This document shows positions 1,451-35,650 of a stretch of 44,531 bases of DNA, one piece after another. Source of the DNA: Clostridia bacterium. Lineage in GTDB: Bacteria; Bacillota; Clostridia; Oscillospirales; CAG-272. The stretch covers positions 1 through 44,531 of the forward strand of contig JAFTYE010000006.1 in NCBI GenBank assembly GCA_017464805.1, given 5' to 3'. Both the position numbers and the translations under genes were made by a program. The notes under the pieces are model-generated. The model was not told the origin of the DNA. It saw only the letters and a program-made list of their open reading frames with translations, and made no database searches. The number at the start of each line of letters is the position of its first letter. Within the stretch, counting starts at the first letter, position 1.

Positions 1451-2249
1451 GGCACGCCTTTCGGCGGCGGGGATCGAAGATTTCCGTGCCGAGGCGAATA
1501 TTCTGTTCTGTCACTTTTCAGGGCTTTCGCTTGCCGCCGCGATGGCGGACCGCGAGGCCGACTGTACCGACCCTGCGCTCGCCGCCGCGCTCGCACGTCG
1601 AGAGGTGCGCGAGCCGCTTGCCTACATTCTGGGGGAGGCCTATTTTTACGGAAAGCGGTTTGCCGTTTCGCCCGCGTGTTTGATCCCGCGTCAAGAAACC
1701 GAATTGCTGGTAGATCGCGCGTGTCAAATTTTGCCGCACGGCGCGGTTTTTGCCGATTTTTGTACGGGAAGCGGCTGCATCGCCGTGGCTCTTGCGCTTT
1801 CGCGCCCGGATCTTTGGGCCGATGCCTTTGACCTCTCGCGCGACGCGCTGACGGTCGCAAAAGCGAACGCCGCGACACACGGGGTGGCTGAGCGCGTGTT
1901 TTTTTACGAGCGCGACCTACTGGATGCGGGCGCGCCGTTTCCGCGCACGCGGTATGACGCGATCCTATCCAATCCCCCGTATCTGACCGCCCGTGACATG
2001 AAAGAGGCCCAGCCCGAGATCACAAGCGAGCCGAGGATGGCACTTTTCGGCGGCGAGGACGGCATGACCTTTTACCGATATTTTCTTTCGCATTATCGTA
2101 ACCTGCTTGCCCCGGGTGGCGTCTTTTTGTTTGAGATCGGCGCGGCCGAGGGAGAGCAGATCCGTGCGGCAGCCGAGTCGCTCGGCTACGATTGCACCGT
2201 CACGCCCGATTACGCCGGCCTTGACCGCGTGGCAGAGGTAAGGGTTTGA
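1431..2249 (+). CDS. prmC: Release factor glutamine N5-methyltransferase PrmC
   Basis: A 272-residue class I SAM-dependent methyltransferase that modifies the GGQ glutamine of peptide-chain release factors. The SAM-binding loop reads DFCTGSGCIAVAL, and the catalytic SNPPYL motif follows. An N-terminal helical domain of about 80 residues precedes them, as usual for PrmC. The frame is open further upstream, but ATG 1431 gives the normal family length and begins MTRRELEARL. The start overlaps DUF1385 by 20 bases. prfA, a frequent neighbour, is absent. One copy of the repeated 12-mer CGACACACGGGG lies inside the gene and encodes part of NAATHG. Confidence 0.93.
   Translation: MTRRELEARLSAAGIEDFRAEANILFCHFSGLSLAAAMADREADCTDPALAAALARREVREPLAYILGEAYFYGKRFAVSPACLIPRQETELLVDRACQILPHGAVFADFCTGSGCIAVALALSRPDLWADAFDLSRDALTVAKANAATHGVAERVFFYERDLLDAGAPFPRTRYDAILSNPPYLTARDMKEAQPEITSEPRMALFGGEDGMTFYRYFLSHYRNLLAPGGVFLFEIGAAEGEQIRAAAESLGYDCTVTPDYAGLDRVAEVRV
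1873..1884 (+). repeat. Single 12-mer copy in prmC
   Basis: An exact copy of CGACACACGGGG, preceded by G, in coding sequence. It is read in the frame that gives Ala-Thr-His-Gly. Confidence 0.8.
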
Positions 2250-2265
2250 GAGGAACGGAGCTGGT

Positions 2266-2540
2266 GCTTTTCGAGAAAGGCTTGGCAAAAGCGCTTTCAG
2301 GCTCGCCGCGCAAGCTTGGTGTAGGGGGATTTTGGATCTCCGTAGGAGCGTGCATTGCACGTTCGCGCCTTTTTCTTGTACAGATGACCGATGGTCGCTA
2401 CCATTACCTTATAAGCGTATTGATCTGCACAACGGCGTCTGTGAAGTTTCCCCTGTTCGGCGTCAGCCGTATTAACCTTTTTGTGGCGGGCCTGCAGCCA
2501 CGCCATAAAAGCTTTTGAGCCACTTTTTTCAAAAAGTGGC
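2266..2540 (+). repeat. Hairpin-ended intergenic repeat, copy 1
   Basis: It begins with the self-complementary GCTTTTCGAG... and the conserved stretch CTTGGCAAAAGC, and ends in a strong hairpin with arms GCCACTTTTT/AAAAAGTGGC. Inside are blocks shared with copies 2 and 3: GGCGTCTGTGAAGTTTCCCC, then CGGCGTCAGCCGT and TTTTTGTGGCG. It fills nearly the whole prmC-ddl gap. The middle section (about 2330-2430) is longer than in copy 3. I see no transposase, so a MITE-like non-autonomous element is the simplest reading. Confidence 0.7.
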
Positions 2541-2614
2541 AATATTCGCACATACACCCCTTTGCCACCCCTTGCATAGGATATAAGGAACAAATCCGAT
2601 TGCGAGGTGGCCTT

Positions 2615-3649
2615 ATGAAAAAACGGATCGCCGTCTTTTTTGGCGGCCGGTCGGCGGAATACGCCGTATCCCTGCGCTCGGCCGCAGCGGTCTTGCGCGC
2701 CCTTTCCTCACAAAAATACGACATCTTCCCCGTGGGCATCACCCGCGCAGGCGCATGGCACCTCACGCGCGCGACCCCCGATGAGATCGAGGCCGACGCG
2801 TGGCAACAAAACGCCACCCCCTGCCTGCTCTCCCCCGACCGCGAGGAACGCGGCCTGTGGATTTTTGAAGACGGCGGCGCATGTCGTCAGCCCATCGACC
2901 TACTCCTGCCCGTGACACACGGCACCTATGGTGAGGACGGCTGTCTGCAAGGCCTTTTCGCGCTCTCGGGCATCCCACACGTCGGGTGCGGCGTACGCGC
3001 CTCGGCCGTCGGCATGGACAAAGCACTGACCAAGACCCTGTGCGCCTCGCACGCGATCCCCACGCTCCCCTTTGTCTTGATGCGCCCCGACACCCCCACC
3101 ACCGCCGCGATCGGCGAGGCGGAGGAGCGGCTCTCTTACCCCCTGTTTGTCAAGCCCGTCACGGGCGGCTCGTCGGTCGGAACAGGGCTTGCGCGCGACC
3201 GCGCGGAGCTTTGTCGCGCCATTTCCATCGCCCTTCCCTACGGTCCCGTCATGATCGAGCCCTTCACCCCCGCGCGAGAGCTGGAGGTCGCGGTCACGGA
3301 CAGCCACGCCGACGGTGTCGGTGAGATCGACACGGGCGGCGCGGACTTCTACGATTACCAGACAAAATACGAAAAGCTGGGTGCGCGCCTCGTCATTCCC
3401 GCGCCCGTATCCCCGCGTGTCGAGCGCGCCGCGCGCGCCTACGCGGAACAGATTTACCGACTTCTTGACTGCCGCGGCGGCGTTCGAGTGGACTTTTTCC
3501 TCTCGCGCGCGGACGGGAGGCTGTACTTCAACGAGATCAACACCCTGCCGGGATTTACCGATATCAGCATGTACCCGCGCCTGGCCGCGCAGGGCGGCTC
3601 TCTTTCCTCCTTGCTTGACCGCCTTGTCACGGGGGCCTTTTCCCGATGA
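2615..3649 (+). CDS. ddl: D-alanine--D-alanine (or D-Ala--D-X) ligase, VanG-like clade
   Basis: A 344-residue ATP-grasp ligase that joins two D-amino acids for the end of the peptidoglycan stem peptide. Glu15 lies in GGRSAEYAVSL. The family blocks HGTYGEDGCLQG, KPVTGGSSVGTG and FNEINTLPGFT are present. The N-terminus, with EY instead of the usual EH and a following SLRSAAAVL...GITRAGAW, resembles VanG-type ligases as I remember them. However, the omega loop reads FYDYQTKY, with the Tyr typical of D-Ala-specific enzymes. ATG 2615 follows GAGGTGG; a TTG five codons upstream is less likely. It overlaps murI by four bases (ATGA). No vanT, vanXY or vanRS genes are nearby, so a housekeeping role is most likely. 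Confidence 0.88.
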   Translation: MKKRIAVFFGGRSAEYAVSLRSAAAVLRALSSQKYDIFPVGITRAGAWHLTRATPDEIEADAWQQNATPCLLSPDREERGLWIFEDGGACRQPIDLLLPVTHGTYGEDGCLQGLFALSGIPHVGCGVRASAVGMDKALTKTLCASHAIPTLPFVLMRPDTPTTAAIGEAEERLSYPLFVKPVTGGSSVGTGLARDRAELCRAISIALPYGPVMIEPFTPARELEVAVTDSHADGVGEIDTGGADFYDYQTKYEKLGARLVIPAPVSPRVERAARAYAEQIYRLLDCRGGVRVDFFLSRADGRLYFNEINTLPGFTDISMYPRLAAQGGSLSSLLDRLVTGAFSR

Positions 3650-6775: not shown

Positions 6776-6812
6776 CCCCGTGTGTCGTGAAACGGCACGC
6801 GGGGATGTTTTT
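6776..6812 (+). terminator. Rho-independent terminator after nrnA (12-mer repeat type)
   Basis: A twelve-pair stem (left arm CCCCGTGTGTCG, right arm CGGCACGCGGGG, with G-U pairs) is followed by ATGTTTTTTCG. The left arm is an exact inverse copy of the CGACACACGGGG 12-mer. Confidence 0.8.
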
Positions 6813-7583: not shown

Positions 7584-7626
7584 CGAAAACACCCCCACCC
7601 GTGTGTCGCGGGTGGGGGTGTTTTCG
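7584..7626. terminator. Bidirectional terminator between the XRE and glycosyltransferase genes
   Basis: A perfect 18-pair stem (arms CGAAAACACCCCCACCCG and its complement) with a seven-base loop TGTGTCG. The A and T tracts at its base allow termination in both directions. Positions 7597-7608 are an exact inverse 12-mer that spans arm and loop. Confidence 0.88.
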
Positions 7627-7645: not shown

Positions 7646-8380
7646 TTATGGTTTTTCTTTCGGAATGCGTTTGAGGTGCTGCCTCACGCGGCCAAGGTCG
7701 CGGAGCATGCGGACGCTGTCGCGCACAAGGCGGATGCGGCCGGGGCGGTTCTCGATCACGCGGACGGGCATTTCGCCAAAATGCACGCCGCGCCGCTCGC
7801 CAACGGCGATCGCTTCGAAATCAAAGGCATAGCGGTCGATGCGGCAAAGCGGGAAGATCTTCTCCGCCGCCTCGGCGGTAAAGCCCTTGATGCCGCTTTG
7901 CGAATCGGACAGGTGCAGACCGAAAAACAGGCGAAGCAGAAGTCGATACGCGCGGGACACCGCGCGGCGAAGTAGCGAATATCCCTCATATCCCTGCGGA
8001 TGTAGGTCGCGCGACCCGATCACCGCGCCGTAGCGCGGGTAGGCGGAGAGGAAGGCCACCGTCCGCCCGATGACCGCCGTGCCGTAGGCCAGGTCGCAAT
8101 CGGTGAAGACGATGTACTTGCCGCGCGCGGCAAGGATTCCCCGCCGCACGGCGTGTCCTTTACCGTGATTTTTATCGCTTCGCAACACACGGGTGGCGGG
8201 ATCGCCATATTTTTCGACGATCTCGACCGAATTGTCGGTCGAACCGTCGTCCGAGAAAAGGATCTCGTATCCGTCGGGAAACGCCTCTTTCATGTAGGCG
8301 CACACGCGCGGCAGGATTTGAGGTAGGATGTCACTCTCATTGTACATGGGAATGACGAGCGTGGTATGCAGCCTTTCCAT
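7646..8380 (-). CDS. GT2 glycosyltransferase, dolichyl-phosphate beta-glucosyltransferase-like
   Basis: A 244-residue family-2 glycosyltransferase that probably loads a sugar from a nucleotide donor onto polyprenyl phosphate at the inner membrane face. It shows TLVIPMYNES, the SDDGSTDNS nucleotide site, the DXD-like TDCDLAYG, and SDSQSGIKGF, which is typical of the DPG/DPM-synthase group. There is no transmembrane tail, unlike some relatives. AAAGGAG precedes the ATG by seven bases. It stands alone between two hairpins; the lipid acceptor and the sugar cannot be read from the sequence. A near copy of the repeated 12-mer (8183-8194, one mismatch) lies inside it. Confidence 0.82.
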   Translation of the reverse strand: MERLHTTLVIPMYNESDILPQILPRVCAYMKEAFPDGYEILFSDDGSTDNSVEIVEKYGDPATRVLRSDKNHGKGHAVRRGILAARGKYIVFTDCDLAYGTAVIGRTVAFLSAYPRYGAVIGSRDLHPQGYEGYSLLRRAVSRAYRLLLRLFFGLHLSDSQSGIKGFTAEAAEKIFPLCRIDRYAFDFEAIAVGERRGVHFGEMPVRVIENRPGRIRLVRDSVRMLRDLGRVRQHLKRIPKEKP

Positions 8381-8473: not shown

Positions 8474-11047
<2,574 letters not shown>

Positions 11048-11123
11048 GGCTTCCTCTTATTAGCCGAATGGATCTTCGGCGGTTTTTCTTTCTGTGCCTT
11101 TCCCGTAAGGAGGGTGTTTTTTC

Positions 11124-11212
11124 GTGTCATCCTGAGCGCAGCACCGCCGAGATTCCGATGCTTCGCATCGCCCTGCGGGTTCGACTACGCTTCGCTCCGC
11201 TCAGAATGACAC
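11124..11212. repeat. 89-base inverted repeat between gyrB and gyrA
   Basis: The ends GTGTCATCCTGAGCG and CGCTCAGAATGACAC pair with each other, and a small hairpin (CGATGCTTCGCATCG) sits inside. Repeats starting with GTCATTCTGAGCG are common dispersed palindromes in bacterial genomes. Here it would fold in the gyrB-gyrA message and may separate their expression. Confidence 0.7.
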
Positions 11213-11297
11213 CTGCGGTGTCCGGCGGTGCGGAGTCGAAATCCGACCGCAGGGAGGATCAAACGCGACTCTCGCATTTGGGAACTTGTAAAAGCAT

Positions 11298-13247
<1,950 letters not shown>

Positions 13248-13351
13248 CTACCCAAAATTTGATGTCGTCCGTTCCGTCCGTGTGATATCCTATCACGCGA
13301 AAATCGGAAATTTCGGACACGGTGAAAATTTTTTAAGGGATACGGGGGTGT

Positions 13352-13415
13352 TGCCGCTTTTTGCAAAAAGCGGCGCAAAAACCTTTATATAACGGCTCGC
13401 AAGCTCGCCGTAAGA
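13352..13415. repeat. Partial hairpin-ended repeat (copy 4)
   Basis: It starts with a hairpin of arms GCCGCTTTTT/AAAAAGCGGC and contains AACGGCTCGCAAGCTCGCCG, also found in the fragment at 31128-31256. The other terminus is missing. It lies between remB and gyrB. Confidence 0.65.
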
Positions 13416-13422
13416 AAAATTA

Positions 13423-13695
13423 TTATTCCTCTCCCCACGCAGGCTCTTCGCCTCTTGCGCCGAGCGACAGAGAGGAGATATGAGAAAGGATCACGCGGCT
13501 TTCCTTTTTCTTTTCCCCATCCAAGAGGAGAAAGGATCTTGGAATATCCGCGTCCGCGACGCTCACGCGGCTTTCCTTCTGTGCACGGGATAGAAACGCC
13601 CTTCCCCCTGCCGTGACGGTCACGTTATCAAAATCAAAAATACCGATGATATCCTTTTTGCGAACGGTCTTGCCGTTACCGATGTGCAGGATCAT
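13423..13695 (-). CDS. remB: Extracellular matrix regulator RemB (DUF370)
   Basis: A 90-residue DUF370 protein. The related B. subtilis RemA and RemB proteins regulate biofilm matrix genes, and remB (yaaB) sits between recF and gyrB there, exactly as here. The domain begins MILHIGNGKTVRKKDIIGIFDFDN, and the region up to about residue 75 is typical. The tail is Gly/Glu-rich. ATG 13695 lies inside the last 20 bases of recF, which implies translational coupling. Direct targets in this organism are unknown. Confidence 0.88.
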   Translation of the reverse strand: MILHIGNGKTVRKKDIIGIFDFDNVTVTAGGRAFLSRAQKESRVSVADADIPRSFLLLDGEKKKESRVILSHISSLSLGARGEEPAWGEE

Positions 13696-14779
13696 AGCAG
13701 CCGCCCTCCACGTATATCTCATTGGCCGCAAGACCAAGCCTCTCTCCCCCCTCACAGGAGGTCAAGATGATCTGCTTTTCACCGTCACCGCCGAGCAGCA
13801 CCGCGCGCCGCCCCTCATCCAGCTCCGAGAGCACGTCGTCAAAGAGAAACACGGGGTATTCTCCCGTCCGCTCGCGGCACACCTCTCCCTCTGCCATTTT
13901 CAGCGACAGCACCGCCGTGCGCTGCTGCCCCTGCGAGGCAAAGGTTTTGGCTTCTTTATCGTTTATAAAAATCTCAAGGTCGTCTCGGTGCACGCCAAAC
14001 AGACTGCACCCCGTCGCCATTTCGCGGGAAATATCCGTGTTATACAACTCGATATATTTCTCCCGAACACTTTCTTTATCGGTAATTTCTCCCGCATCCG
14101 AGGAAAAGCGAAGAGATAGCCTCTCCCTCTCACCGGAAAGCGAGGCTTGCGCGTCCTTCGCGTATCCCGACAGGCGGTCGATATATTCCCGCCTCGCCAC
14201 AGCCACCGTGGCACAGGCCTCGGCCATGCCCTCGCTGTATGAGGCAAGCAGGTCGCGGTCGATGTATCCGAATTTAGCCGCTTCCTTTAGCACCGCGTTG
14301 CGGTGCTCGCGCAGCTTTTCGTAGCGCGACAGCGCACGCAAATATCCCTTATCTAATTGAGAAATTGCAATATTGAGAAACAGACGCCGCTCGGCGGGCC
14401 CTCCCTTGACCAGATCCAGATGCTCGGGATAAAAGAGCACCGCACGGAACTTGCCCATCATCTCCGAAAGTGAAATGGGAGCCGCACCGCGAAGACGCTT
14501 TCTCTCGCCATCGTAGTAACGGTAAGTCAGCCTTTGCTCGCCGTATTCCTTTTCTTCAAAGGTAAGGGACAAGGAAAAGCCCCTCTCCCCAAAGCGCACC
14601 TGATCCGCGTCGGTCGCGCCGCGGAAGCTTTTTCCGCGCGCAAAGGTGTAAATACCCTCAATGAGGTTGGTCTTTCCTTGTGCGTTTTTGCCGTACAGCA
14701 GGTTCACGCCGGGGGAAAAATCCAACCGTACCTTTTCCATGTTGCGGTAGTTCTCCGCCTCAAAGGAAGAGATCTTCAT
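13676..14779 (-). CDS. recF: DNA replication and repair protein RecF
   Basis: A 367-residue SMC-like ATPase that, with RecO and RecR, loads RecA at gaps and helps restart stalled forks. The Walker A motif is YGKNAQGKTNLIEG at about residue 30. The signature and Walker B region reads FLFDDVLSELDEGRR, followed by a D-loop-type segment. It starts three bases after the dnaN stop with only a weak ribosome site, as expected for coupled translation. The end overlaps remB. Confidence 0.95.
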   Translation of the reverse strand: MKISSFEAENYRNMEKVRLDFSPGVNLLYGKNAQGKTNLIEGIYTFARGKSFRGATDADQVRFGERGFSLSLTFEEKEYGEQRLTYRYYDGERKRLRGAAPISLSEMMGKFRAVLFYPEHLDLVKGGPAERRLFLNIAISQLDKGYLRALSRYEKLREHRNAVLKEAAKFGYIDRDLLASYSEGMAEACATVAVARREYIDRLSGYAKDAQASLSGERERLSLRFSSDAGEITDKESVREKYIELYNTDISREMATGCSLFGVHRDDLEIFINDKEAKTFASQGQQRTAVLSLKMAEGEVCRERTGEYPVFLFDDVLSELDEGRRAVLLGGDGEKQIILTSCEGGERLGLAANEIYVEGGCYDPAHR

Positions 14780-14782
14780 CTC

Positions 14783-15931
14783 TTATCCGTTCATGCGAAC
14801 GGGCAGAACCATGTAGAAGAAGCTCTTTTCCTCGCTCTTCTCATGCGGACGAATGGTCACACTCTGCGTGGGCGACTGGAAGGACAAATCCAGTAGCTCT
14901 CCCTCACTTGCGCGGATGCTGTTTATAAGGTAGCGGCAGTTAAAGCCTATCTCCAGATTCTCCCCCTCGTGGGTAACCGGCATTTCATCGTACACCTTGC
15001 CGTTGACCGAGGTCGAGGTGATGCTCATGACGTTGCCATCCAAAATAAGCTTGACGTAGCTGCGGCCGGAGCCTACGATGCGTTCCTCGGCGATCAGAGT
15101 CGCTCTTTCCAGTGCTGCGAGCAGACGGTCGCGCTCAACAGTGATGTGGATGGTTTGATCCTTTGGAATGATGCGTTCGTAGTCGATGTATTCGGAATCG
15201 ATCATGCGCGTAAAGAAGATAATATCGTCAAAGAAGAAAATGGCATGCTTGCGCGCAATTTTGACGCAGGTGATCTCGTCCCCGTCACCAAGGATCCGGA
15301 CAAGCTCGTTCAGCGCGTGGCCGGGTACGAGAAAGGAAAAGTCCAGCACGCTGACCTCACCCACATCCCGCAGGTCGCAGGATACCGCGCGGCGGGAAAG
15401 AGTATAGGAGTCGCAGGAGATCAGCTCCATGCGATTTTCCATAATACGGAAGAAAGCACCGCAGAGCATGGGACGAGAATCCTGCTCTGCGACCGAGTGC
15501 AGGACCTTGGAGATCATGTCCTTAAGAATCTCACTCTCTACCTCAAAGCCGCGCGGGCCGGTCAGCTCCGGCATGGTGGGAAAATCCTTACCGGGAAGTG
15601 CGGACAAGGAGAAGGATGCCTTACCCGAGGTGACGGTGGTGTTGAGGTTTTCGTCCACCGCGATGGTCAGCTCGTCCTCGGACAGCACCTTGATGATCTG
15701 AAGAAGACGACCGGCCGAAATGATATAGCTGCCGGGCTCGATCACCGACTCTGCCTCCAGCGTTGCACGGACACCCTTGTTCATGTCGTAGGTGGACAGG
15801 CGAACCGTGTTGCCCCCCATCGTTTCGATGAGGACACCCTCAATAGATGGAATGGAGTTTTTGGTGGATACGGTTCCCATGCAGGGGTAGAGCTTCTCCA
15901 GCAGCTTGGATTTTTTGAAAACGATCTTCAT
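14783..15931 (-). CDS. dnaN: DNA polymerase III beta subunit (sliding clamp)
   Basis: A 382-residue clamp of three similar domains that encircles DNA and tethers polymerase III. The start MKIVFKKSKLLEKL and the C-terminal LPVRMNG are typical. The frame continues upstream, but ATG 15931 fits the family. The nearest good Shine-Dalgarno (AAAGGAGAG) lies about 30 bases upstream, with a GTCCC-TTCG-GGAC hairpin between it and the ATG. dnaA lies upstream across a 493-base gap that may contain the origin. The small S4 gene (yaaA), often found between dnaN and recF, is absent. Confidence 0.95.
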   Translation of the reverse strand: MKIVFKKSKLLEKLYPCMGTVSTKNSIPSIEGVLIETMGGNTVRLSTYDMNKGVRATLEAESVIEPGSYIISAGRLLQIIKVLSEDELTIAVDENLNTTVTSGKASFSLSALPGKDFPTMPELTGPRGFEVESEILKDMISKVLHSVAEQDSRPMLCGAFFRIMENRMELISCDSYTLSRRAVSCDLRDVGEVSVLDFSFLVPGHALNELVRILGDGDEITCVKIARKHAIFFFDDIIFFTRMIDSEYIDYERIIPKDQTIHITVERDRLLAALERATLIAEERIVGSGRSYVKLILDGNVMSITSTSVNGKVYDEMPVTHEGENLEIGFNCRYLINSIRASEGELLDLSFQSPTQSVTIRPHEKSEEKSFFYMVLPVRMNG

Positions 15932-16151
15932 GTTGCACGTCGTCGTCCCGAAGGGACGGCTCTCCTTTTGTGTGTTTTCTTTTATTCTGTATCCAGTAGT
16001 AACCGTAGTAGGGGCTGTTGAAACTGTTGGGAATTCAAAATTGCCATATAAGGACAAGCAATTTCAGCTTTTCTAAATGTTGGAAAGGGGTTAGGAAGGT
16101 GTGTGGTGTGTGTTGAAAAACAGACACTTTTCAACAGGGGTAGGGGAAGAT
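15932..16151. other. Candidate oriC segment between dnaA and dnaN
   Basis: Five 9-mers of the form TGTTGRRAA or close lie at 16016-16024, 16025-16033 (tandem), 16078-16086, 16111-16119 and 16128-16136 (the last inverted). Two related ones lie upstream of dnaA at 17862-17870 (inverted) and 17873-17881. They differ from the canonical DnaA box TGTGGATAA at two or more positions. No canonical box was found by eye. The location is a usual place for a Bacillota oriC. Confidence 0.4.
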
Positions 16152-16405: not shown

Positions 16406-16424
16406 CCCTTCTCTTCTCGTCCTA

Positions 16425-19010: not shown

Positions 19011-19041
19011 GTCCCATTCCCTTCAAACAAAAGGAGAAATC

Positions 19042-21635: not shown

Positions 21636-21670
21636 CACCCCCGTGTGTCGTTTCACAACACACGGGGGTG
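21636..21670. terminator. Bidirectional terminator between rlmH and rnhA (12-mer type)
   Basis: A 13-pair stem (CACCCCCGTGTGT/ACACACGGGGGTG). The left arm contains an exact inverse 12-mer and the right arm a copy with one mismatch. It serves convergent genes. Confidence 0.82.
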
Positions 21671-22767: not shown

Positions 22768-23655
22768 TCAGTATTCCTCAAAGAAATCGTTGCCGCAAAC
22801 GCCGCGTAAAAAGGCTTCCAGATCCTCGTTGTCCTCGTAGTAGAAGGTGATGCAGCCCTTGCCCTTCTTATTGTCCAGCTTCACGCGACGGCCGAGTGCC
22901 GTCATCACGCGTCGCTCCAGCTCGCGGGAGTAGTCCACGACCTGCGGTTGCGGCTCGATCGGGGTGATCTCGCTTCCCTTTTTGTTGCGGCGGCGAACCT
23001 CTGCCTCGGTCATGCGCACCGAAAGCCCACGCTGGGCCACAAAGGCCGCCAGCGCGACCATACCGTCACGGTCGCGCAGGCCAAGTAACGCGCGCGCGTG
23101 GCCCGCGCTCAACTCACCCGACACGACCAGCGCGCGAACGCCTTCGGGCAGCTCCAAAAGGCGCACGGCATTGGCAATTGCCGAGCGGCTTTTGCCGATG
23201 CGGGTGGAAATTTCCTCCTGCGTGAGGTGGAACTCCTCGGCAAGCGAGCGGTAAGCCGCCGCTTCCTCAATGGGGTTGAGGTCCTCTCGCTGAATGTTCT
23301 CGATTAGAGCGATCTGGGCGGTCTCCTCCTCGGTGGTGTCGAGGATGATGACCGGCACCTCGGACAGCCCCGCCATCTTGGATGCGCGGAAACGACGCTC
23401 GCCCGCGATGATCTGATAGCGGTCGTCCCCTACCCGGCGGACAAGGATCGGCTGTAGCACGCCGTGTGCGGAAATGGACTCGGCTAACTGGGCCAGTGCC
23501 TCGGTGTCGAAATACTTGCGCGGCTGATTTCCCTTCGGCTCCATCTGCGACAGGCGCAGCATGGTCTTGCCACCGGCGGGCGCGCTCTCCTCCATGGTGT
23601 TTTCCAGAAAGATCGCGTCAATGCCTCGGCCAAGGCCGGATAATTTCTTTGCCAT
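22768..23655 (-). CDS. parB: Chromosome partitioning protein ParB (Spo0J)
   Basis: A 295-residue CTP-dependent DNA clamp that loads at parS sites and spreads. The N-terminal LSGLGRGIDAIF is the ParA-contact segment. GERRFRASKMAGL is the CTP-binding arginine patch, and the helix-turn-helix follows with TQEEISTRIGKSRSAIANAVRLL. A C-terminal dimerisation domain is present. AAAGGAGA precedes ATG 23655. A 189-base gap separates it from parA, and three matching parS sites lie 1.1 kb upstream. No noc-like second copy is nearby. Confidence 0.95.
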   Translation of the reverse strand: MAKKLSGLGRGIDAIFLENTMEESAPAGGKTMLRLSQMEPKGNQPRKYFDTEALAQLAESISAHGVLQPILVRRVGDDRYQIIAGERRFRASKMAGLSEVPVIILDTTEEETAQIALIENIQREDLNPIEEAAAYRSLAEEFHLTQEEISTRIGKSRSAIANAVRLLELPEGVRALVVSGELSAGHARALLGLRDRDGMVALAAFVAQRGLSVRMTEAEVRRRNKKGSEITPIEPQPQVVDYSRELERRVMTALGRRVKLDNKKGKGCITFYYEDNEDLEAFLRGVCGNDFFEEY

Positions 23656-23844
23656 GATGATGTTCTCCTTTTTTGGTTGGGTCGTTTCGGGGTTGCGGAA
23701 GCAAGGTTTTCCTCTTTTCGTGCGATACCCGTGTCGATCATAATTTCCATATTTTACCAATTTTGTGGATTTTCTCTTGATTGTTGCACGGTTTTTGATC
23801 GGATTTTGGTGAAACCCGTCGATTTTTGCTTCGTAACGGCGGGA

Positions 23845-24606
23845 TCAGATGCGCAGAACCAGCTCCTTGGCCACGTCGTTATATTCCTGTGTTCCCTTCC
23901 CGAGCGGGTCGTAGTAGCAAATCGGCTTGCCGAAGCCGGGGGCCTCACTCAATTTCACGCTACGCGAAATGGGGGTCTTAAACAGCTTTTCGGCATAGTA
24001 TTTCTTCAACTCTGCCACCACCTGCCCCGATAGGATCAGGCGACCATTGTACATGGTGAGCAGAATGCCCGTGATCTCCAGGGTCGGATTGTAGAGCGAG
24101 CGAACGCGCTTGACCGTCATCATCAGCTGGGAAAGGCCCTCCAGGGCGAAAAACTCGCATTGCATGGGGATCACCACGCCGTTGGCGGCGGTGAGCGCAT
24201 TGACCGTCAGCTGCGAAAGCGAGGGCGGGCAGTCGATGATGATGTAATCGTACTCTTCGGCTACCTGCGCAAGAGCATTTTTGAGGCAGTTTTCGCGGTG
24301 CTCGATCTCTCCAAGCTCGAATTCCGCGCCTGCCAGGGCCATCGTAGACGGCAAAACCGACAAATTCTTAAATTCCGTGGGCATAATGGCGGCTTTGATG
24401 TCCGCTTGACCGATCAGAACCTCGTAGGTAGAGCTTTTGATACTCTTTTTGGGGATTCCGACGCCGCTGGTTGTGTTGCCCTGCGGGTCCATGTCCACCA
24501 TCAGCACCCTTTTGCCGCGTTTTCCGAGTGCGGCGGCTGTATTCACGGCAGACGTGGTCTTTCCAACGCCGCCCTTCTGGTTGGCGAAAGCCAATATCTT
24601 TCCCAT
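23845..24606 (-). CDS. parA: Chromosome partitioning ATPase ParA (Soj)
   Basis: A 253-residue Walker-type ATPase that binds DNA as an ATP dimer and, in B. subtilis, also regulates DnaA. The deviant Walker A is KGGVGKTT at residues 11-18 and the Walker A' segment is VDMDPQGN. ATG 24606 follows AGGGAGG; the longer upstream frame has no ribosome site. A consensus promoter lies about 125 bases upstream. The clusters of parS and of dnaA are both close, as in most Bacillota. Confidence 0.95.
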   Translation of the reverse strand: MGKILAFANQKGGVGKTTSAVNTAAALGKRGKRVLMVDMDPQGNTTSGVGIPKKSIKSSTYEVLIGQADIKAAIMPTEFKNLSVLPSTMALAGAEFELGEIEHRENCLKNALAQVAEEYDYIIIDCPPSLSQLTVNALTAANGVVIPMQCEFFALEGLSQLMMTVKRVRSLYNPTLEITGILLTMYNGRLILSGQVVAELKKYYAEKLFKTPISRSVKLSEAPGFGKPICYYDPLGKGTQEYNDVAKELVLRI

Positions 24607-24729
24607 GGTTGCCTCCCTAATTTGTGTCAGGATTCGGTTTTTGCGTCCGAAAGGAGGGCAAAAAATCGCCAAAGTAGCCATGTTTGCCTACAAGAAGATG
24701 GTTGGGACGCAAAAAACCAACTTTTCTTT

Positions 24730-24793: not shown

Positions 24794-24809
24794 TGTTTCA
24801 CGTGAAACA
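24794..24809. promoter_or_regulatory. parS site 1
   Basis: Perfect 16-bp parS palindrome TGTTTCACGTGAAACA, the nucleation site for ParB. Confidence 0.96.
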
Positions 24810-24850
24810 CATGGGACAGTGCGACCGTCCCGCTGTTTTCAAAAGCCAAT

Positions 24851-24866
24851 TGTTTCACGTGAAACA
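24851..24866. promoter_or_regulatory. parS site 2
   Basis: A second perfect copy of the 16-bp parS palindrome, 57 bases from the first (start to start). Confidence 0.96.
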
Positions 24867-24898
24867 ATCCAATCAATGGAACAAGCGCGCCCAACAAA

Positions 24899-24914
24899 TG
24901 TTTCACGTGAAACA
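24899..24914. promoter_or_regulatory. parS site 3
   Basis: A third perfect parS palindrome, 48 bases from the second. It touches the terminator of the next gene. Confidence 0.96.
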
Positions 24915-26352: not shown

Positions 26353-26775
26353 ATGAACGACATTTTGAAAGAGCTTTGTACGGAAACATCCTGCCACGGC
26401 AGGCGAGGGGAGAACGCGGGGAGGAAATTGCAAATTTGCGCGTTGTTCCAACAAAACCACGAGAAATTGGAAGGGAAGCTGAATGCGGAAGGCCTTGACC
26501 GCCTTGGTCGGCATGACGATAACATGTTCGAGCTCTGTACGTTGTGGGAAGCGGATGTATTCGTCCATGCCTTACGCCTCGCTGCTCGCCTTGCGGCGGA
26601 ATGCCTTTCGGAGAAACAAAATGGTACCCCGTGTGTCGTTTTGCGACACACGGGGTGGCTTTTATGGTCTCCTTTTGTTGTGGTAGGACCGGCCTTCGGA
26701 CGGTCCGTCAATGATAGAGAAGCCCCGTGCGGACCGTCGGATAAGCGAATAAAAGCGGGGGAGGCGTTTTTATGA
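26353..26775 (+). CDS. DUF6809-like small protein with a run-on tail
   Basis: The first about 90 residues (MNDILKELCTET...DVFVHALRLAARLAAECLSEKQ) match the DUF6809 pattern of a short N-terminal block, a helical middle and a C-terminal RLGARL-type helix. AAAGGAAAACGCC precedes the ATG. In the related fragment at 33.5 kb the frame ends with TAA right after LSEK. Here that codon is CAA, so the frame runs on for about 50 residues through the terminator hairpin and a repeat. The tail is therefore unlikely to be functional. Function of the family is unknown; the divergent XRE gene suggests a regulated accessory or phage-derived trait. Confidence 0.6.
   Translation: MNDILKELCTETSCHGRRGENAGRKLQICALFQQNHEKLEGKLNAEGLDRLGRHDDNMFELCTLWEADVFVHALRLAARLAAECLSEKQNGTPCVVLRHTGWLLWSPFVVVGPAFGRSVNDREAPCGPSDKRIKAGEAFL
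26626..26656. terminator. 12-mer inverted-pair hairpin (DUF6809 / rnj)
   Basis: A perfect 13-pair stem formed by two exact 12-mers, CCCCGTGTGTCG and CGACACACGGGG, with a five-base loop. T-rich sequence follows on both sides. It lies inside the extended DUF6809-like frame and downstream of rnj. Confidence 0.85.
26680..26735 (+). repeat. Dispersed repeat GTAGG-CCGGC, copy 2
   Basis: It matches the copy at 6870-6926: GTAGGACCGGC, GGACGGTCCGTCAATGA and AAGCCCCGTGCGG. It again follows a 12-mer hairpin and a DUF6809-like gene. I see no gene between here and rnj. Confidence 0.6.
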
Positions 26776-26848: not shown

Positions 26849-28885
26849 TTACGCTTCCATCACAATCGGCAGGATCATAGGGCTACGCTTGGTCTGCGTG
26901 AAGAAGAAACGCGAAAGCTCATCGCGCAGGGAATTTTTCAGCATGGTGAAATCCCCGCGTGACTCCAAGGCACGGCGCAGCGCGTTTGTGGCGATCTTGC
27001 GCGCGCTGTCCATCATTTCCTCGGATTCGCGCACGTACACGAAGCCGCGCGAAACGATCTCCGGCCCCGAAAGGATCGCGCGCTCGCGGAGCGCGACCGT
27101 GGCCACCACCACAATCAGGCCGTCCTGCGAGAGCAGACGGCGGTCGCGGAGCACGATTGAACCGACATCCCCGACGCCCGCGCCGTCCACCAGCACTCGC
27201 CCGGCGGGTACGGTGCCGTTCTTGCGCGCGCCCTTTTCGTCAATTTCCAGCACCTCACCGATCTCGGACACGAAAATGCGATCGGGCGACATGCCCATGT
27301 ACTCCGCGATCTTTTTGTGCGCGTGTAGATGCCGTGCCTCGCCGTGTATCGGCATGAAATATTGCGGTCTGACCAGCGCGTGGAGCAGCTTCAGCTCCTC
27401 GGAGCAGGCGTGCCCCGATGCGTGTACGCCCGCCGTGGTCGCGTCGCTGACCACCTTGATGCCGCCCGTGATCAGGGCGTTGATGATGCGGTCAACCAGC
27501 AGCTCGTTGCCCGGAATGGCACTGGAGGACAGGATGACCGTGTCCTGTGGCGTGAGCTTGACCCGCTCGTGCGAGCCGAACGCCATGCGGTAAAGCGCGC
27601 TCATCGGCTCGCCCTGGCTGCCCGTGGTGACCAGTGTGATCTCGTTCGGGCGGAAGCGGCGAAGGTCGCCTACGCTGACCAGCGTTCCCTCTGGCACGTT
27701 CATATAGCCCAGCTCCACCGCCGCGCCGATGACGTTTTCCATGCTCCGACCGAGCACCGCCACATGTCGGCCGTGCTTCACCGAGCAGTCGATGATCTGT
27801 TGCACACGGTGGACGTTTGAGGAAAAGGTTGCGATGACCAGGCGACTGTCGGCGTTCTCGGTGAAAATGCGGTCAAGCGAGCCGCCGACCGACCGCTCCG
27901 ACGGGGAAAAGCCCGCACGCTCCGCGTTCGTGGACTCGGCGAGCATTAGGAGAACGCCCTCGTTTCCGATCTGGCCGATGCGGGTCAGATCCATCATGTT
28001 GCCGTCGATGGGGGTCACGTCCAGCTTGAAGTCGCCCGAATGGAATACGGTGCCAAGCGGCGTGCGGATCGCCAAGGCGCAGGCGTCCGCGATCGAGTGG
28101 TTGACGTGGATAAATTCGGCCAAGAGAACCCCAAGCTGTACCACGTCTCCTGCCTCCACGGTCAGAAGGCGCGGCTTGTGCGGCAGCTTGTGCTCGCTCA
28201 ATTTGTTCTTGATGATGCCAAGGGCCAGGCGGGTGCCGTAGATCGGCGGATTGATCGCGCGGAGTATATAGGGAATCGCGCCGATGTGATCCTCGTGCCC
28301 GTGGGTGATGAGGATGCCGCGTACACGGTCGGCATTCTTTTCGAGATAGGAGATATCGGGAATGACGTAATCCACGCCCAGCATATCCTCGTCTGGGAAG
28401 CCGAAGCCGCAGTCCACCACGATGATGTCATTCTCGTGCTCGATCACCGTCATGTTCTTGCCGATCTCGCCAAGACCGCCGAGTGACATCACGCGCAGCT
28501 TGCCGAGTGGCTTTTTCCTTGTGTGTGCGGCAGCGCGGGGGCTTTTTGCTTCGGCAGGCTTGTGCAGGGGGGCAGGGGACGCGCCGCGCGGTTGCGGGGT
28601 GGTGCCGCTCGGTTTTCCGACTGTGCGCGACACACGGGTCGGCTTGTCGGCCGATTTTTGCGCGCGCGTCGGCTTCTCGGTCTGCGGCGCATGCGGGGCG
28701 CCCCGTTTTTTCTCCGTGTCCCTTTCGGTTTTTGCCGTGGCACGCGAGGCGGGCTTTTCCGAGCTCTTTTTGTGTGTTTGGGGATACCCGTGTGTCGTGC
28801 TCGGACGTTCGACGGGCTCCCATGCCTGCCGCACGGGGCGGGGCGGAGATTTTTTGACTTTGGTTTTCTTTTCTGTATTGTTCAT
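26849..28885 (-). CDS. rnj: Ribonuclease J with a long basic N-terminal extension
   Basis: A 678-residue beta-lactamase/beta-CASP nuclease combining endonuclease and 5'-3' exonuclease activity in mRNA turnover and rRNA maturation. The core starts near residue 129 with KLRVMSLGGLGEIGKN, carries the zinc motif HGHEDH (195-200), the beta-CASP region, and a C-terminal domain ending in FFTQTKRSPMILP. The first about 128 residues are Lys-, Arg-, Pro- and Thr-rich, low complexity and probably disordered; they may bind RNA. ATG 28885 is chosen because a longer frame would run through the leader hairpin. Only a weak ribosome site (GAAAG) is visible. Two exact 12-mers lie in the extension. Confidence 0.92.
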   Translation of the reverse strand: MNNTEKKTKVKKSPPRPVRQAWEPVERPSTTHGYPQTHKKSSEKPASRATAKTERDTEKKRGAPHAPQTEKPTRAQKSADKPTRVSRTVGKPSGTTPQPRGASPAPLHKPAEAKSPRAAAHTRKKPLGKLRVMSLGGLGEIGKNMTVIEHENDIIVVDCGFGFPDEDMLGVDYVIPDISYLEKNADRVRGILITHGHEDHIGAIPYILRAINPPIYGTRLALGIIKNKLSEHKLPHKPRLLTVEAGDVVQLGVLLAEFIHVNHSIADACALAIRTPLGTVFHSGDFKLDVTPIDGNMMDLTRIGQIGNEGVLLMLAESTNAERAGFSPSERSVGGSLDRIFTENADSRLVIATFSSNVHRVQQIIDCSVKHGRHVAVLGRSMENVIGAAVELGYMNVPEGTLVSVGDLRRFRPNEITLVTTGSQGEPMSALYRMAFGSHERVKLTPQDTVILSSSAIPGNELLVDRIINALITGGIKVVSDATTAGVHASGHACSEELKLLHALVRPQYFMPIHGEARHLHAHKKIAEYMGMSPDRIFVSEIGEVLEIDEKGARKNGTVPAGRVLVDGAGVGDVGSIVLRDRRLLSQDGLIVVVATVALRERAILSGPEIVSRGFVYVRESEEMMDSARKIATNALRRALESRGDFTMLKNSLRDELSRFFFTQTKRSPMILPIVMEA
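28628..28639 (+). repeat. Single 12-mer copy in the rnj extension (a)
   Basis: Exact CGACACACGGGT, preceded by G, on the strand opposite the gene. It encodes Thr-Arg-Val-Ser on the coding strand. Confidence 0.8.
28786..28797 (-). repeat. Single 12-mer copy in the rnj extension (b)
   Basis: Exact copy in the orientation opposite to (a), 158 bases away. It encodes Thr-Thr-His-Gly. Confidence 0.8.
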
Positions 28886-28916
28886 GTCTTTCTTGCACCC
28901 GAAAAAAAGCAGACCT

Positions 28917-28950
28917 CCCCCATCGGTTTCGGGCATTCGCCCGATGGGGG
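28917..28950 (-). promoter_or_regulatory. Leader hairpin of rnj
   Basis: Arms CCCCCATCGG/CCGATGGGGG with a nested CGGGC/GCCCG stem. A run of seven T follows eight bases later on the minus strand. It may stabilise or attenuate the rnj message. Confidence 0.5.
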
Positions 28951-29056
28951 CTATGGGCGGGGCGTGATTTTGCGACAAACAAAACGTCCTTTTGTCGCAC
29001 ACGCGCCCGCGTAACGTACACTCGCAACGGGGATGGATCCGTTGCATTTCCTTTAT

Positions 29057-29085
29057 ATTATACACAAAATCAGAGAAAAATGCAA
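29057..29085 (-). promoter_or_regulatory. rnj promoter
   Basis: TTGCAT (29080-29085) and TATAAT (29057-29062) on the minus strand with a 17-base spacer, giving a leader of about 165 bases. Confidence 0.78.
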
Positions 29086-29257: not shown

Positions 29258-29286
29258 CCCCGTGTGTCACTTCGCAACACACGGGG
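29258..29286 (-). terminator. Terminator of the dnaI-like gene (12-mer type)
   Basis: Ten-pair stem CCCCGTGTGT/ACACACGGGG, followed on the minus strand by CTTTTTTGG. Both arms are 12-mers with one mismatch. Confidence 0.85.
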
Positions 29287-29300: not shown

Positions 29301-30263
29301 TTATTTCAGCTTCTGCTTGCGAACGTCCTCACCGACGAAGACAAGGGCGCGGTAGCCGCCGAACAGACGGGATGTGATGCGGTCGCCGTAGCGCGATTCC
29401 AGCTCTCCTTCCCCAAGGTTGGTGTTGATGATGGTGGGGCGACCATTGTTTTCGCGCGTGTTGATGAGGTTGTAGAGGCAGGAAACGGTAAACTGCGTGG
29501 TGGTTTCGGTGCCGAGGTCGTCGATGATGAGGAGGTCGGCCTCCATGTACTTATCCGCGCGGGCATCCTCGCCGTGTCCGCTCTTGAAGCGGTCGTACTC
29601 AAATTCCCCGAACAGATTGGGCGCGCTTTCGTAGCGCACGTCAAAGCCGCGCTCGATCACCAATCGCGCGATCGCGGTGCACAGGTGGGTCTTGCCCAGC
29701 CCCGTTCGACCAAAGAAGATCAGATTGCCTGAGGCAAGCGAAAAGGCCTCCGCATACTCGCGGCAGATGGCGAGTGTGCGCTCCATGCGGCGCAGGTTGT
29801 CCTTATTTTCGCGGTAATAATCGAGCGAAAAGTTCTCAAAGCTCTGGCGGTCGATGAGCGTACCGAGGCCCGACTGGCGCAACGCGGCCTTGGTCAGCTC
29901 GGCGCGCATACAGCCACACATGTGGATGTCGGTGTACCCCGAGTCACGACACACGGGGCAGCTGTAATGTACCTCGGTGTAATCCTCCGGGAGGCCAAGC
30001 GACACGAGAATTTTCTTTCTTTCTTCTTGCAGGGCTTGGTTTTTCGCCATCACCTCGATGAAGGCGTCCGAGCTTTTGCCCCCATCGCAGGCGGCGCGGA
30101 ACAGGGCAAGGCCTGTCTTGCGCAGGGCGCGGTCGATCTCGGCAATCTCGGCACTTTTTTCGTGAACCTCCGTGCGGCGGCGGTCACTTTCCGCGATGGC
30201 ATTTTGGCGACGTTTTTCCAGAATGTCCTTCACGGTGCGGTAGGTTTCGGTACTGTATCCCAT
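29301..30263 (-). CDS. DnaI/DnaC-type helicase loader ATPase
   Basis: A 320-residue AAA+ protein expected to load the replicative helicase. The N-terminal about 95 residues are helical. A zinc-type motif follows (CPVCRDSGYTDIHMCGC), then Walker A GRTGLGKTHL, Walker B LLIIDDLGTE and a sensor region ending in SRLFGGYRALVF. The zinc plus ATPase layout matches DnaI of B. subtilis and the DnaC-like proteins of clostridia; IstB-type transposition helpers lack this N-terminal half. AAGGGGG precedes the ATG. It follows proC by 18 bases. The repeated 12-mer at 29947 encodes part of the conserved CPVCR zinc motif. Confidence 0.87.
   Translation of the reverse strand: MGYSTETYRTVKDILEKRRQNAIAESDRRRTEVHEKSAEIAEIDRALRKTGLALFRAACDGGKSSDAFIEVMAKNQALQEERKKILVSLGLPEDYTEVHYSCPVCRDSGYTDIHMCGCMRAELTKAALRQSGLGTLIDRQSFENFSLDYYRENKDNLRRMERTLAICREYAEAFSLASGNLIFFGRTGLGKTHLCTAIARLVIERGFDVRYESAPNLFGEFEYDRFKSGHGEDARADKYMEADLLIIDDLGTETTTQFTVSCLYNLINTRENNGRPTIINTNLGEGELESRYGDRITSRLFGGYRALVFVGEDVRKQKLK
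29947..29958 (+). repeat. Single 12-mer copy in the dnaI-like gene
   Basis: Exact CGACACACGGGG on the strand opposite the gene. On the coding strand it supplies the codons for Pro-Val-Cys-Arg of the zinc motif, so it coexists with a conserved protein sequence. Confidence 0.8.
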
Positions 30264-33352: not shown

Positions 33353-33365
33353 GAAGTTTTTGAAA

Positions 33366-33510: not shown

Positions 33511-33516
33511 AAATTG

Positions 33517-33546
33517 CCCCGTGTGTTGCAAAGCGACACACGGGGG
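33517..33546. terminator. 12-mer hairpin terminator after GH42
   Basis: Arms CCCCGTGTGTTG (one mismatch) and CGACACACGGGG (exact 12-mer). On the minus strand CAATTTTTATTT follows, fitting termination of the GH42 gene. It also stands right after the DUF6809 fragment on the plus strand. Confidence 0.8.
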
Positions 33547-33622
33547 TCTTTCTTAAGCCTCCCGCTTAAGGGGGCTTTGAATGGACGGTCGACCGTTGGT
33601 TGTCCCTGCGAAAAGACCTTTG

Positions 33623-35650
33623 TCAAGCCTCTTCCTTTAAGAACAGGCACTCGTAGGCAGAGAGGGCGATCTTTTCGCCTGCTTGAACGCGCTTGCCGGT
33701 CAGGATATCTGTGGCCGTAAAGGGAGCGGTCGCCTCACCCGGTGCACCTGCCGTTTCCACCAGGCAAAGCACCCTGCCGTATTCGCCCTCGCGGAGCACC
33801 GTTTCCACGCTCGCGTCCGCCTCGGCCACAGGAGTGATGCCGCATTCCTCGGCCACCTCGGCAAGAAATTCGGTAAGGGCCGCGTTCTCAAGCTGTGCGC
33901 CCATCAGAATAATGCGGCCGCGCCCGACCTTCGTTTCCACGATGGCGGGGTAGTTTGCGATATATTCGTTGCCGCCCTTCTCGTATTTACCGAGCACGCG
34001 GGAGCCGTCATCCGCACGGAAGGCATCGTAGGCCACGGCGGCGGTTTCTACCACCTTGCCGTTTAACAGGCGGATTCTCGTCCGCTCGCCAACGGGCGCA
34101 AACGCCGCGTACCGATCCTCTTTGTGCGGCGCGGGGACGGAGTACACACGGTAAACCTTGCACCAGTCCTCCAGATGCCCGAATGGGGCGTGCTTGTATT
34201 TCGTGCCGTCGGGGGTCGCGATGTCTGAAAGCGGACCGACTACCCACGTGCCGCCCGCCTTTACCCACTCGTACACGCGCTCGGCAAAGCCGTCCTCGTC
34301 CAGCGTGTATTGCCCGATCGATACCAGCATCTTGTAGCGGGAAAGATCCGCGCGCGTGCCGACTACGTCGGCCGAGAAGTGCGCGTCCGAGAGCAGACGA
34401 TGGATCTGTGCCTCATGATATTCGGGCAGGCGGGATGCCATCGGCAAATATTTGCGGATGTAGTAGGGAATGCCGCCCATCACGGTGGCAAGCCCGCCGT
34501 GCGACACACGGGTGCCCCGCAGGGCGGGGGACAGCACCGTCAGTGCCGAGGAAATGCTCCGCACCTCGTCGGCGGTCTGCATCTCGCGGCCCCACGCGTC
34601 CACCAGTGAGCCGTGCGCCTGCTCGTGCCCCGCGCGGTGCGCGCGGAAGAGCCAATACAGGGTCGCCTCTGCCCCCCGTGCAAAGCCCAGAAGGGTGTTG
34701 GCACGGCAGAAGCCGGGCAGGCGCGGGCCGTTCGGGAATTGGCTGTCGTTGTGGTTGGCTGAGGTCTCGGTCACCCAAAACGGGCGGTCCTTCATCGCAC
34801 GGTAGAAGTCGAACCAGAAGGACGCCTTGCGCGGCCCGCTGTAATGATTGAGCTGCATCACGTCCAGGGACGCGGCCGTCTTTTCCACATCCAGCCAGCC
34901 GATGGGCATGGTGTCCGTGCCGATCGGCGCAGTGACGAACTCGCGCAGGGTGTCTGCCCATTCGCGGCAAAGCTCTGCGTACACTTCATTTTTGTACGCC
35001 GACCAGACAATGTACAGCGAGGCGCAGTAGCCCGTGGTCTTGTCGGGCGGGTCGATCTCCTCAAAGTCCGAGTAGGCGAGGCTCCAGGTGAAATTGCCCC
35101 AAGCGTCGTTGAGAGCCTCGATTGTGTCGTAGCGGCTTCGGAGGTAGCGTCGAAAATCCGCGGTGCAGGTCGGGCAGGTACAGCCAAAGCCGTCCTTTTG
35201 CGGGATCAGCTCGTTGTCAAGCTGCCAGCCGATCACGTTCTCGTCCGCGCCGAACTCGCGTGCCATTTCGCGGTTGATCTTGCGGCACAGCTCACGGTAG
35301 GTAGGGTCGGTCGGGCAGGTATCGCGGCGGCCGCCGTGCGACACACGGGTGCCGTTTACCGTTGCCATGATTGTGGGATATTTCCGTACCATCCATTTTG
35401 GCGGTGTCGCAGACGGCGTACACATGATGACCGCCATGCCGCGCTTTTTGCACTTGTCTACCACCTCGCGGAAGAGGGAAAAGTCGTATTCGCCCTCGCG
35501 CGGCTCCATGGTCGCCCAAGCGAACTCCGCCACGCGCACGGTGTCGAGGCCCTGCCTTTGCATGCGATTGAGATCGGTGTCGATGTCCTCGCGCGGCCAG
35601 GCTTCGGGGTAGTAGGCTGCGCCGAGATAGGGGGGAGTATGGCGTTTCAT
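33623..35650 (-). CDS. GH42 beta-galactosidase
   Basis: A 675-residue retaining glycosidase that releases terminal beta-galactose, probably cytoplasmic since no signal peptide is present. The TIM barrel begins LGAAYYPEAWP; the acid/base is Glu147 in WQLDNE and the nucleophile Glu295 in WVTETSANH. Four cysteines (112, 157, 159, 162) match the zinc cluster of GH42. The trimerisation and C-terminal beta domains follow, giving the family length. AAAGGA precedes the ATG. The heptad TRVSHGG appears twice (101-107 and 380-386), encoded both times by an identical 23-base stretch that contains the repeated 12-mer. Galactoside range cannot be read from sequence. Confidence 0.93.
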   Translation of the reverse strand: MKRHTPPYLGAAYYPEAWPREDIDTDLNRMQRQGLDTVRVAEFAWATMEPREGEYDFSLFREVVDKCKKRGMAVIMCTPSATPPKWMVRKYPTIMATVNGTRVSHGGRRDTCPTDPTYRELCRKINREMAREFGADENVIGWQLDNELIPQKDGFGCTCPTCTADFRRYLRSRYDTIEALNDAWGNFTWSLAYSDFEEIDPPDKTTGYCASLYIVWSAYKNEVYAELCREWADTLREFVTAPIGTDTMPIGWLDVEKTAASLDVMQLNHYSGPRKASFWFDFYRAMKDRPFWVTETSANHNDSQFPNGPRLPGFCRANTLLGFARGAEATLYWLFRAHRAGHEQAHGSLVDAWGREMQTADEVRSISSALTVLSPALRGTRVSHGGLATVMGGIPYYIRKYLPMASRLPEYHEAQIHRLLSDAHFSADVVGTRADLSRYKMLVSIGQYTLDEDGFAERVYEWVKAGGTWVVGPLSDIATPDGTKYKHAPFGHLEDWCKVYRVYSVPAPHKEDRYAAFAPVGERTRIRLLNGKVVETAAVAYDAFRADDGSRVLGKYEKGGNEYIANYPAIVETKVGRGRIILMGAQLENAALTEFLAEVAEECGITPVAEADASVETVLREGEYGRVLCLVETAGAPGEATAPFTATDILTGKRVQAGEKIALSAYECLFLKEEA
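34502..34513 (+). repeat. Single 12-mer copy in GH42 (a)
   Basis: Exact CGACACACGGGT, part of a 23-base stretch identical to copy (b), coding TRVSHGG at residues 380-386. Confidence 0.82.
35339..35350 (+). repeat. Single 12-mer copy in GH42 (b)
   Basis: Exact CGACACACGGGT in the same frame and orientation as copy (a), coding TRVSHGG at residues 101-107. Confidence 0.82.

Follow-up and report, generated by a model that had tools for sequence, protein, structure and literature searches.

The window analyzed here, a stretch of 44,531 nucleotides that makes up an entire contig (C11; JAFTYE010000006.1) of an uncultured Clostridia bacterium, carries many copies of one 11-mer, CGACACACGGG (the word), and raises the question of what such a word is kept for. 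Known examples of short words preserved in a genome for a protein come from few groups. The original prediction, made from the letters of the window, compared the word with DNA-uptake sequences and named a spreading hairpin family as the main alternative. We found that the word is real and is maintained at the DNA level. It is probably read by some protein, because it is exact, one-directional, kept at dozens of places, crowded at the origin in this species, and respelled between relatives, and it looks more like a chromosome-organizing mark than a DNA-uptake tag. Its setting is some gut Clostridia, where it represents either an unknown means of organizing the chromosome or a rare Gram-positive analog of the uptake sequences; a genus-wide word with dialects also lends itself to the study of possible coevolution between a word and its reader. 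The source genome (G000) is a metagenome-assembled genome of 1.76 Mb (91.7% complete); labels in G denote the genomes compared, those in C contigs, and those in L fetched loci.

An exact word and its dialects

A recount of the window gave 13 exact copies, as originally described, and seven copies with one mismatch, where five had been claimed; the positions given earlier were correct, being at most one base off for minus-strand copies. Dinucleotide shuffles of the window contained 1.08 exact and one-mismatch copies together (maximum of 3 in 100 shuffles). The G or T said to follow the word was present in 13 of 13 exact copies (G in seven and T in six), and the G said to precede most of them in 8 of 13 (A in the other five). 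The division of the exact copies also held: six lie in terminator-type hairpins, five hairpins in all (folding at about -19 to -37 kcal/mol, depending on the strand), and seven lie inside unrelated genes, i.e., prmC, an NfnB-type oxidoreductase gene, rnj (two copies), a dnaI-like gene, and GH42 (two copies). A sixth word hairpin (29259/29275) is made of two one-mismatch copies. Genome-wide, G000 has 38 exact copies and none of the reversed control, an excess that the original prediction had anticipated; with one mismatch allowed, the count is 97 versus 28 for the control, and 23 of these 97 are the near-form CAACACACGGG.

Exact CGACACACGGG occurs in 17 of 69 genomes of the genus (40 copies in G060, 38 in G000, 15 in G039, 14 in G054, 5 in G001, and one or two in each of twelve others), and it is shared as a word by four or five of the 69, G000 included. 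Among other genera of the order, 2 of 11 genomes have it, in one copy each. An overlapping 10-mer dialect, ACACGGGTGC, emerged when G066 was screened for sharp words, and it is present in at least one copy in 62 of the 69 genomes; ten are rich in it (G047, 74 copies; G066, 55; G034, 47; G065, 39; G002, 38; G001, 36; G070, 34; G007, 33; G016, 28; and G072, 26), with 0 to 3 copies of the reversed control. Like CGACACACGGG, it occurs both as inverted pairs in hairpins and as singles within genes, and the two share the core ACACGGG and similar flank features. Fourteen genomes are thus word rich, with 14 to 74 copies of either dialect (G000, G060, G039, G054, G001, G034, G066, G047, G065, G002, G007, G016, G070, and G072; five of them are only 56 to 81% complete), and word-poor congeners exist. 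No similar origin-clustered word was seen in the origin regions of siblings (L031 to L047; samples of 5 to 40 kb), and the literature covered, mainly openly accessible papers, contained no report of this word or of an uptake word in Clostridia. Other repeats were encountered along the way: G047 (L108 to L127) has further dispersed words around AGCCTTACGAGC and ACAGCGTAACGACTA, with approximately 9 to 13 recurrences in 275 kb, and the origin region of G030 (L034 and L035) has repeats of 7 to 9 copies in 40 kb, e.g., around ACGGGGACAAGT and ATTCGCATCATA.

Maintenance at the DNA level is indicated by the copies within genes, which exceed a codon-shuffled model, a comparison that the original prediction had proposed. 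Synonymous shuffles within the 41 genes called in the window gave 0.22 copies (maximum of 3 in 500 shuffles), compared with 7 actual copies; the corresponding values were 12 versus 0.43 in G000, 14 versus 0.33 in G060, 26 versus 1.67 in G034, 13 versus 0.50 in G066, and 3 versus 0.33 in G047, and there was no excess in G016 (0 versus 0.23). The genes were called by our own scorer. Because the stretches were picked for holding copies in the case of G060, most of G034, and part of G000, and because G066 is where the dialect was discovered, only the G047 and G016 results are free of selection. The mismatch spectrum is sharp: the G060 stretches contain 27 exact copies, 11 one-mismatch copies (7 for the control), and 68 two-mismatch copies (60 for the control).

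Orthologous loci bear on the same point. In a Noc-type parB gene on contig C9, the word encodes RHTG; the peptide is unchanged in the G060 orthologue, from which the copy differs by three changes, all of them synonymous. Between G039 and G054, 6 of 15 G039 copies could be aligned to fetched G054 loci, 4 of them with the exact core preserved (flank identity of 0.77 to 0.86), one of these being also present in G060 (flank identity of 0.66); in the opposite direction, 7 of 14 G054 copies align and 5 keep the core. For G000, 5 of 36 copies align to G039 or G054 loci, with one keeping the core (GH42; position 34502), and 2 of 36 align to G060 loci, with none keeping it; for G060, 4 of 39 align to other genomes and 1 keeps the core. 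These retention rates are biased upward, because the fetched loci were confined to copy-carrying ones in G039 and G054 and, for the most part, in G060.

Most contexts hold a single copy, namely, 83 of 104 for CGACACACGGG in four genomes and 72 of 79 for ACACGGGTGC in five. When copies are aligned on ACACGGG, T, G, C, and C are favored after the core, and both dialects have AT-rich positions before and after it, approximately one helical turn apart as judged by eye. The extended sites read TTYG-CGACACACGGG-TGCC-nnn-WWA and AAAAnTTG-ACACGGGTGC-CGCC-TWT, and the flanks vary from copy to copy. The center of the word is CAC/GGG, not the CCC/GGG palindrome of the Noc binding site (NBS), and few or no symmetrical versions of it occur, which led us to reject a site for a Noc or ParB homodimer. 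The 27 G060 copies show no preference for the leading or lagging strand (11 versus 16); a mark of replication strands, such as a fork trap, FtsK-orienting polar sequence (KOPS), or Chi, was rejected on this ground.

Placement around the replication origin

The window is the oriC/parS region of the chromosome, a fact that the original prediction had overlooked: it contains the dnaA cluster (gyrA, gyrB, recF, dnaN, and dnaA), parA and parB, and all of the parS sites detected in the genome, three in number. Within these 44.5 kb lie 13 of the 38 exact copies, compared with 0.96 expected. When close pairs are counted once, 12 of 31 sites are in the window (P of approximately 2 × 10^-9, with approximately 40 such windows allowed for). 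The remaining copies are on C8 (12 copies), C6 (4), C14 (3), C16 (3), C9 (2), and C1 (1), and the other contigs (1,103,642 bases) have none. The even spacing named beforehand as a test of an uptake sequence was therefore not found: in 200,000 random placements of the 31 sites, in which six contigs of unknown length were entered as equal, the copy-free part averaged 0.24 Mb and reached at most 0.83 Mb, compared with the 1.10 of 1.76 Mb observed. The same simulation minus the window (19 sites) never reached 1.10 Mb in 200,000 trials.

Base composition and contamination were considered as sources of this pattern. The G+C content of copy-free C7 is mostly lower (0.48 to 0.57; 14 stretches), but copy-free C17 is not low (0.55 to 0.57; 2 stretches), and G+C content alone therefore does not account for the absence of copies. 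A chimeric bin was rejected, as the tetranucleotide correlation to the rest of the genome is 0.71 to 0.86 (mean per sampled stretch), compared with 0.45 to 0.74 for stretches of relatives.

Clustering at the origin is only partly common to the carriers, being extreme in G000, approximately 1.7-fold when 13 other genomes are taken together, and absent in G016. Contigs bearing parS, parA, or the dnaA cluster in the 13 other genomes hold 41 copies, compared with 24.7 expected (P = 0.0016); for the relatives, only rounded genome sizes entered this calculation, and 37 of the 38 G002 copies were among those listed. This set of contigs and the comEC set considered below exclude genomes whose copies were not all among the matches listed. 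Outside the origin set are G012, G015, G038, G046, and G054 (few copies, or contig sizes not obtained), of which G046 has one of its three copies on its parS contig and the other four have none on theirs.

Word copies and genes of the window

Ahead of the origin cluster, the word is found in prmC (1873 to 1883, plus strand; sense, read as ATHG), a one-mismatch copy, CGACACGCGGG, lies at 3412 to 3422 (minus strand), and an exact copy at 6777 to 6787 (minus strand) forms one arm of a terminator-type hairpin whose opposite arm is two mismatches from the word. The copy at 7598 to 7608 (minus strand) is within a strong hairpin (-36.9 and -34.9 kcal/mol), to which it contributes the loop and one stem edge with no word-to-word pairing. 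The near-form CAACACACGGG follows at 8183 to 8193 (plus strand), and the gyrA-to-dnaA cluster itself (8474 to 17804, minus strand) contains no exact copy. Beyond it, the NfnB-type gene (18985 to 20433, plus strand) has a copy at 19427 to 19437 (plus strand; sense, ATHG), with an inverted one-mismatch copy at 19463, and a hairpin of an exact (minus) and a CAACACACGGG (plus) copy occupies 21640 to 21666, between convergent genes for a SPOUT methyltransferase (rlmH type) and RNase H. The parB and parA genes (22768 to 24681, minus strand), with parB best matching ParB/Spo0J structures, are followed by the three parS sites TGTTTCACGTGAAACA (24794 to 24914), which are the sole ones genome-wide at up to one mismatch to TGTTNCACGTGNAACA.

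A hairpin of two exact copies (26628 to 26654) is located approximately 190 bases past the 3' end of rnj. In the RNase J frame (26849 to 29065), approximately 190 residues precede the RNase J match, and both rnj copies fall in this N-terminal extension, one at 28628 to 28638 (plus strand; antisense, TRVS) and the other at 28787 to 28797 (minus strand; sense, TTHG). Between rnj and the dnaI-like gene, a hairpin (29259 to 29285) combines TGACACACGGG (minus) and CAACACACGGG (plus), and the dnaI-like gene carries the word at 29947 to 29957 (plus strand; antisense, PVCR). A further hairpin of CAACACACGGG (minus) and an exact copy (plus) at 33518 to 33544 separates GH42 from an amino-acid kinase gene, presumably of the proB type. 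GH42 (33623 to 35650) has two antisense copies on the plus strand, at 34502 to 34512 and 35339 to 35349; the same word stands at the place aligned to the former in G054 locus L253 (flank identity of 0.62), and G039 and G054 loci that align to GH42 or to one another (L243, L253, and L254) likewise contain the word, with TGCCC after it. The contig end (38803 to 44304), with sugar transferase and glycosyltransferase genes, contains neither exact nor one-mismatch copies.

Possible readers and known systems

We tentatively favor, at slightly less than even confidence, the reading that a putative asymmetric protein-binding site of approximately 25 bp has the word as its core and marks the origin-proximal chromosome in the manner of Noc, RacA, or SlmA sites. 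One sequence-specific DNA-binding protein would read the word, and its job would be chromosome organization, division, or segregation; tens of exact sites would crowd around oriC and leave a large part of the chromosome, presumably on the terminus side, free of them, and paired copies might also act by co-option as intrinsic terminators, an activity that is predicted. Such a marking protein would account for the copy number, the sharp spectrum, the clustering, and the absence of a strand preference.

Several observations weigh against this reading. The near-form CAACACACGGG is spread slightly more widely than the exact word, with three copies on C10 and one on C15, two contigs that have no exact copy, but it does not occur on C7 or C17. 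The contigs of G000 are unordered, so that its origin-to-terminus gradient is inferred rather than directly observed, and the copy-free part is placed on the terminus side only by its AT content and its lack of copies. None of the 28 G016 copies is in the 240 kb adjoining parS (3.5 expected). The scarcity of copies on contigs bearing comEC (7 versus 27.2 expected in seven genomes; P = 5 × 10^-6), which in itself speaks for the reading, was looked at only after the pattern had been suspected. Of the genomes outside that set, G054, G059, G030, G031, G040, G041, and G069 have no listed copy on a comEC contig, and G012 has one of its three dialect copies on such a contig. Of the genes lying no more than 2 kb from G060 copies, 6 match G000 contigs with copies and 7 match contigs without, which does not indicate a domain common to the two genomes; farther away in these stretches, however, ten genes match copy-bearing and none copy-free contigs, mostly in one block. 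The word pairs require co-option as terminators, and we know of such pairing for uptake sequences but not for organizing sites. Finally, Noc sites are palindromic, whereas the word seldom or never takes a symmetrical form.

A DNA-uptake signal with species dialects, whereby cells favor word-bearing DNA and biased recombination keeps the word, is in our view unlikely, although much of what the original prediction had put forward for it stood, i.e., a genome-wide word, terminator pairs, genic singles, and dialects in sister genomes. This reading covers the pairs, the singles, and dialects with a common core, and it is also favored by the excess over codon shuffles, the orthologous site that differs by synonymous changes, the AT-rich extended motif, a feature also described for the uptake signal sequences (USS) of Pasteurellaceae (PMC1852404), and a ComEC frame of 753 to 756 residues in G000. 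What did not stand is a function in uptake, as the reading does not cover the low number, sharpness, clustering, and missing pilins. The 14 to 74 copies in rich genomes compare with approximately 1,000 or more (PMC1852404 and PMC3630211), 1.10 Mb of G000 has no exact copy, and the spectrum (27 exact copies to 4 one-mismatch copies over the control) is sharper than that of the DNA-uptake sequence (DUS) of Neisseria, with ratios to one-mutation forms of 1:1.15 and 1:1.45 (PMC3630211). The original prediction had proposed to look for competence and pilin genes. comEC (PF03772) was detected in 53 of the 69 genomes, including 22 of 22 near-complete ones with or without words; its presence does not follow the word, and it is therefore uninformative as a correlate. 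Of the 69 genomes, 10 yielded N-methyl pilins (PF07963), and G070 was the only one of these among the 14 word-rich genomes; Tad/Flp pili were not searched for genome-wide. A regular expression for the Walker A motif of T2SSE-like/Tad ATPases matched only an ABC transporter in 839 kb (about half) of G000. Type IV pilins are present in just 3 of the 22 near-complete genomes, although all 22 have comEC (in G000, L229 on C15).

The word could instead be the operator of a conserved transcription factor, of which WhiA is the nearest by sequence, but we regard this as improbable. Its GACACAC fits the first seven of the eight positions of the monomeric asymmetric core GAYACRCY, and the published core, together with bipartite binding that distorts DNA in simulations (PMC11701221 and PMC3781837), agrees with such a site. 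Against it, many copies lie within genes in either direction or after genes, the ACACGGGTGC dialect fits the core less well, and the spellings of GAYACRCY were counted without a control. The 420 bases upstream of rpsJ, a published target, contain neither this core nor the word in G000, the genome in which they were inspected.

A second ParB paralogue of G000 (C9:2852-3748) spans the Noc model TIGR04285 at 264 bits, under the cut-off of 315, and has Q, K, and R at the positions distinguishing Noc from ParB (alignment read by eye; residues according to PMC7383237). The canonical Noc site TTCCCGGGAA was absent from the 835 kb read (47% of G000), in which at most approximately one chance copy was expected; degenerate forms were not searched for. 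Both points may speak for the marking reading, but the asymmetry of the word disfavors this Noc-type ParB as the reader. The Noc-type ParB loci of G000 (L107:2852-3748) and G060 (C72; L053:9288-10124) have two and three word copies, respectively, within approximately 6.5 kb, and differ in local gene order, with one G000 copy inside the gene. A speculative scenario, slightly less probable still than an operator, is that in this genus an asymmetric word, varying by dialect, took the place of the palindromic Noc sites and serves as both an origin-half mark and terminator stems; CAC/GGG, half parS and half NBS, could suit a ParB/Noc-type pair made up of one subunit of each. Least probable is a repetitive extragenic palindrome (REP)-like or terminator-stem family that spreads in hairpin form and leaves the genic singles behind as debris, which the original prediction had named as the main alternative and which the pairing of 17 of 36 G000 contexts favors (19 are single), but which is insufficient given that 38 of 39 G060 and 15 of 15 G039 contexts are single, flanks vary between copies, one-mismatch debris is close to the control level, and the genic copy and its orthologue differ by synonymous substitutions with no insertion.

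Among known systems, DUS of Neisseriaceae and USS of Pasteurellaceae resemble the word in their asymmetric core of 10 to 11 bp, dialects, inverted terminator pairs, genic singles, and AT-rich extended flank; the word differs in having tens rather than approximately a thousand or more copies, a sharper spectrum, regional clustering, pilins in only 1 of 14 word-rich genomes, and a home in the Clostridia. WhiA operators share an asymmetric core and GACACAC, but their published sites are in promoter regions, whereas the word is in genes and terminator-type hairpins. With parS, the word shares the chromosome region in G000 and the half CAC of its center, as it shares the half CCC with NBS; it has other flanks, is not palindromic, and occurs alongside canonical parS. 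NBS (TATTTCCCGGGAAATA) is a palindrome (PMC7383237), whereas the word is asymmetric and its pairs form terminator-type hairpins. In number and placement, the likeness is to the sites of Noc (Bacillus subtilis and Staphylococcus aureus) and SlmA, which, like the word, number in the tens and which are origin proximal and largely absent near the terminus (PMC5540599), as the word may be in G000. Of the 41 loci of S. aureus Noc, a single one falls outside the origin-proximal half (PMC5540599), and the ram sites of RacA are mainly near oriC (PMC4949633), where the word is in excess in G000.

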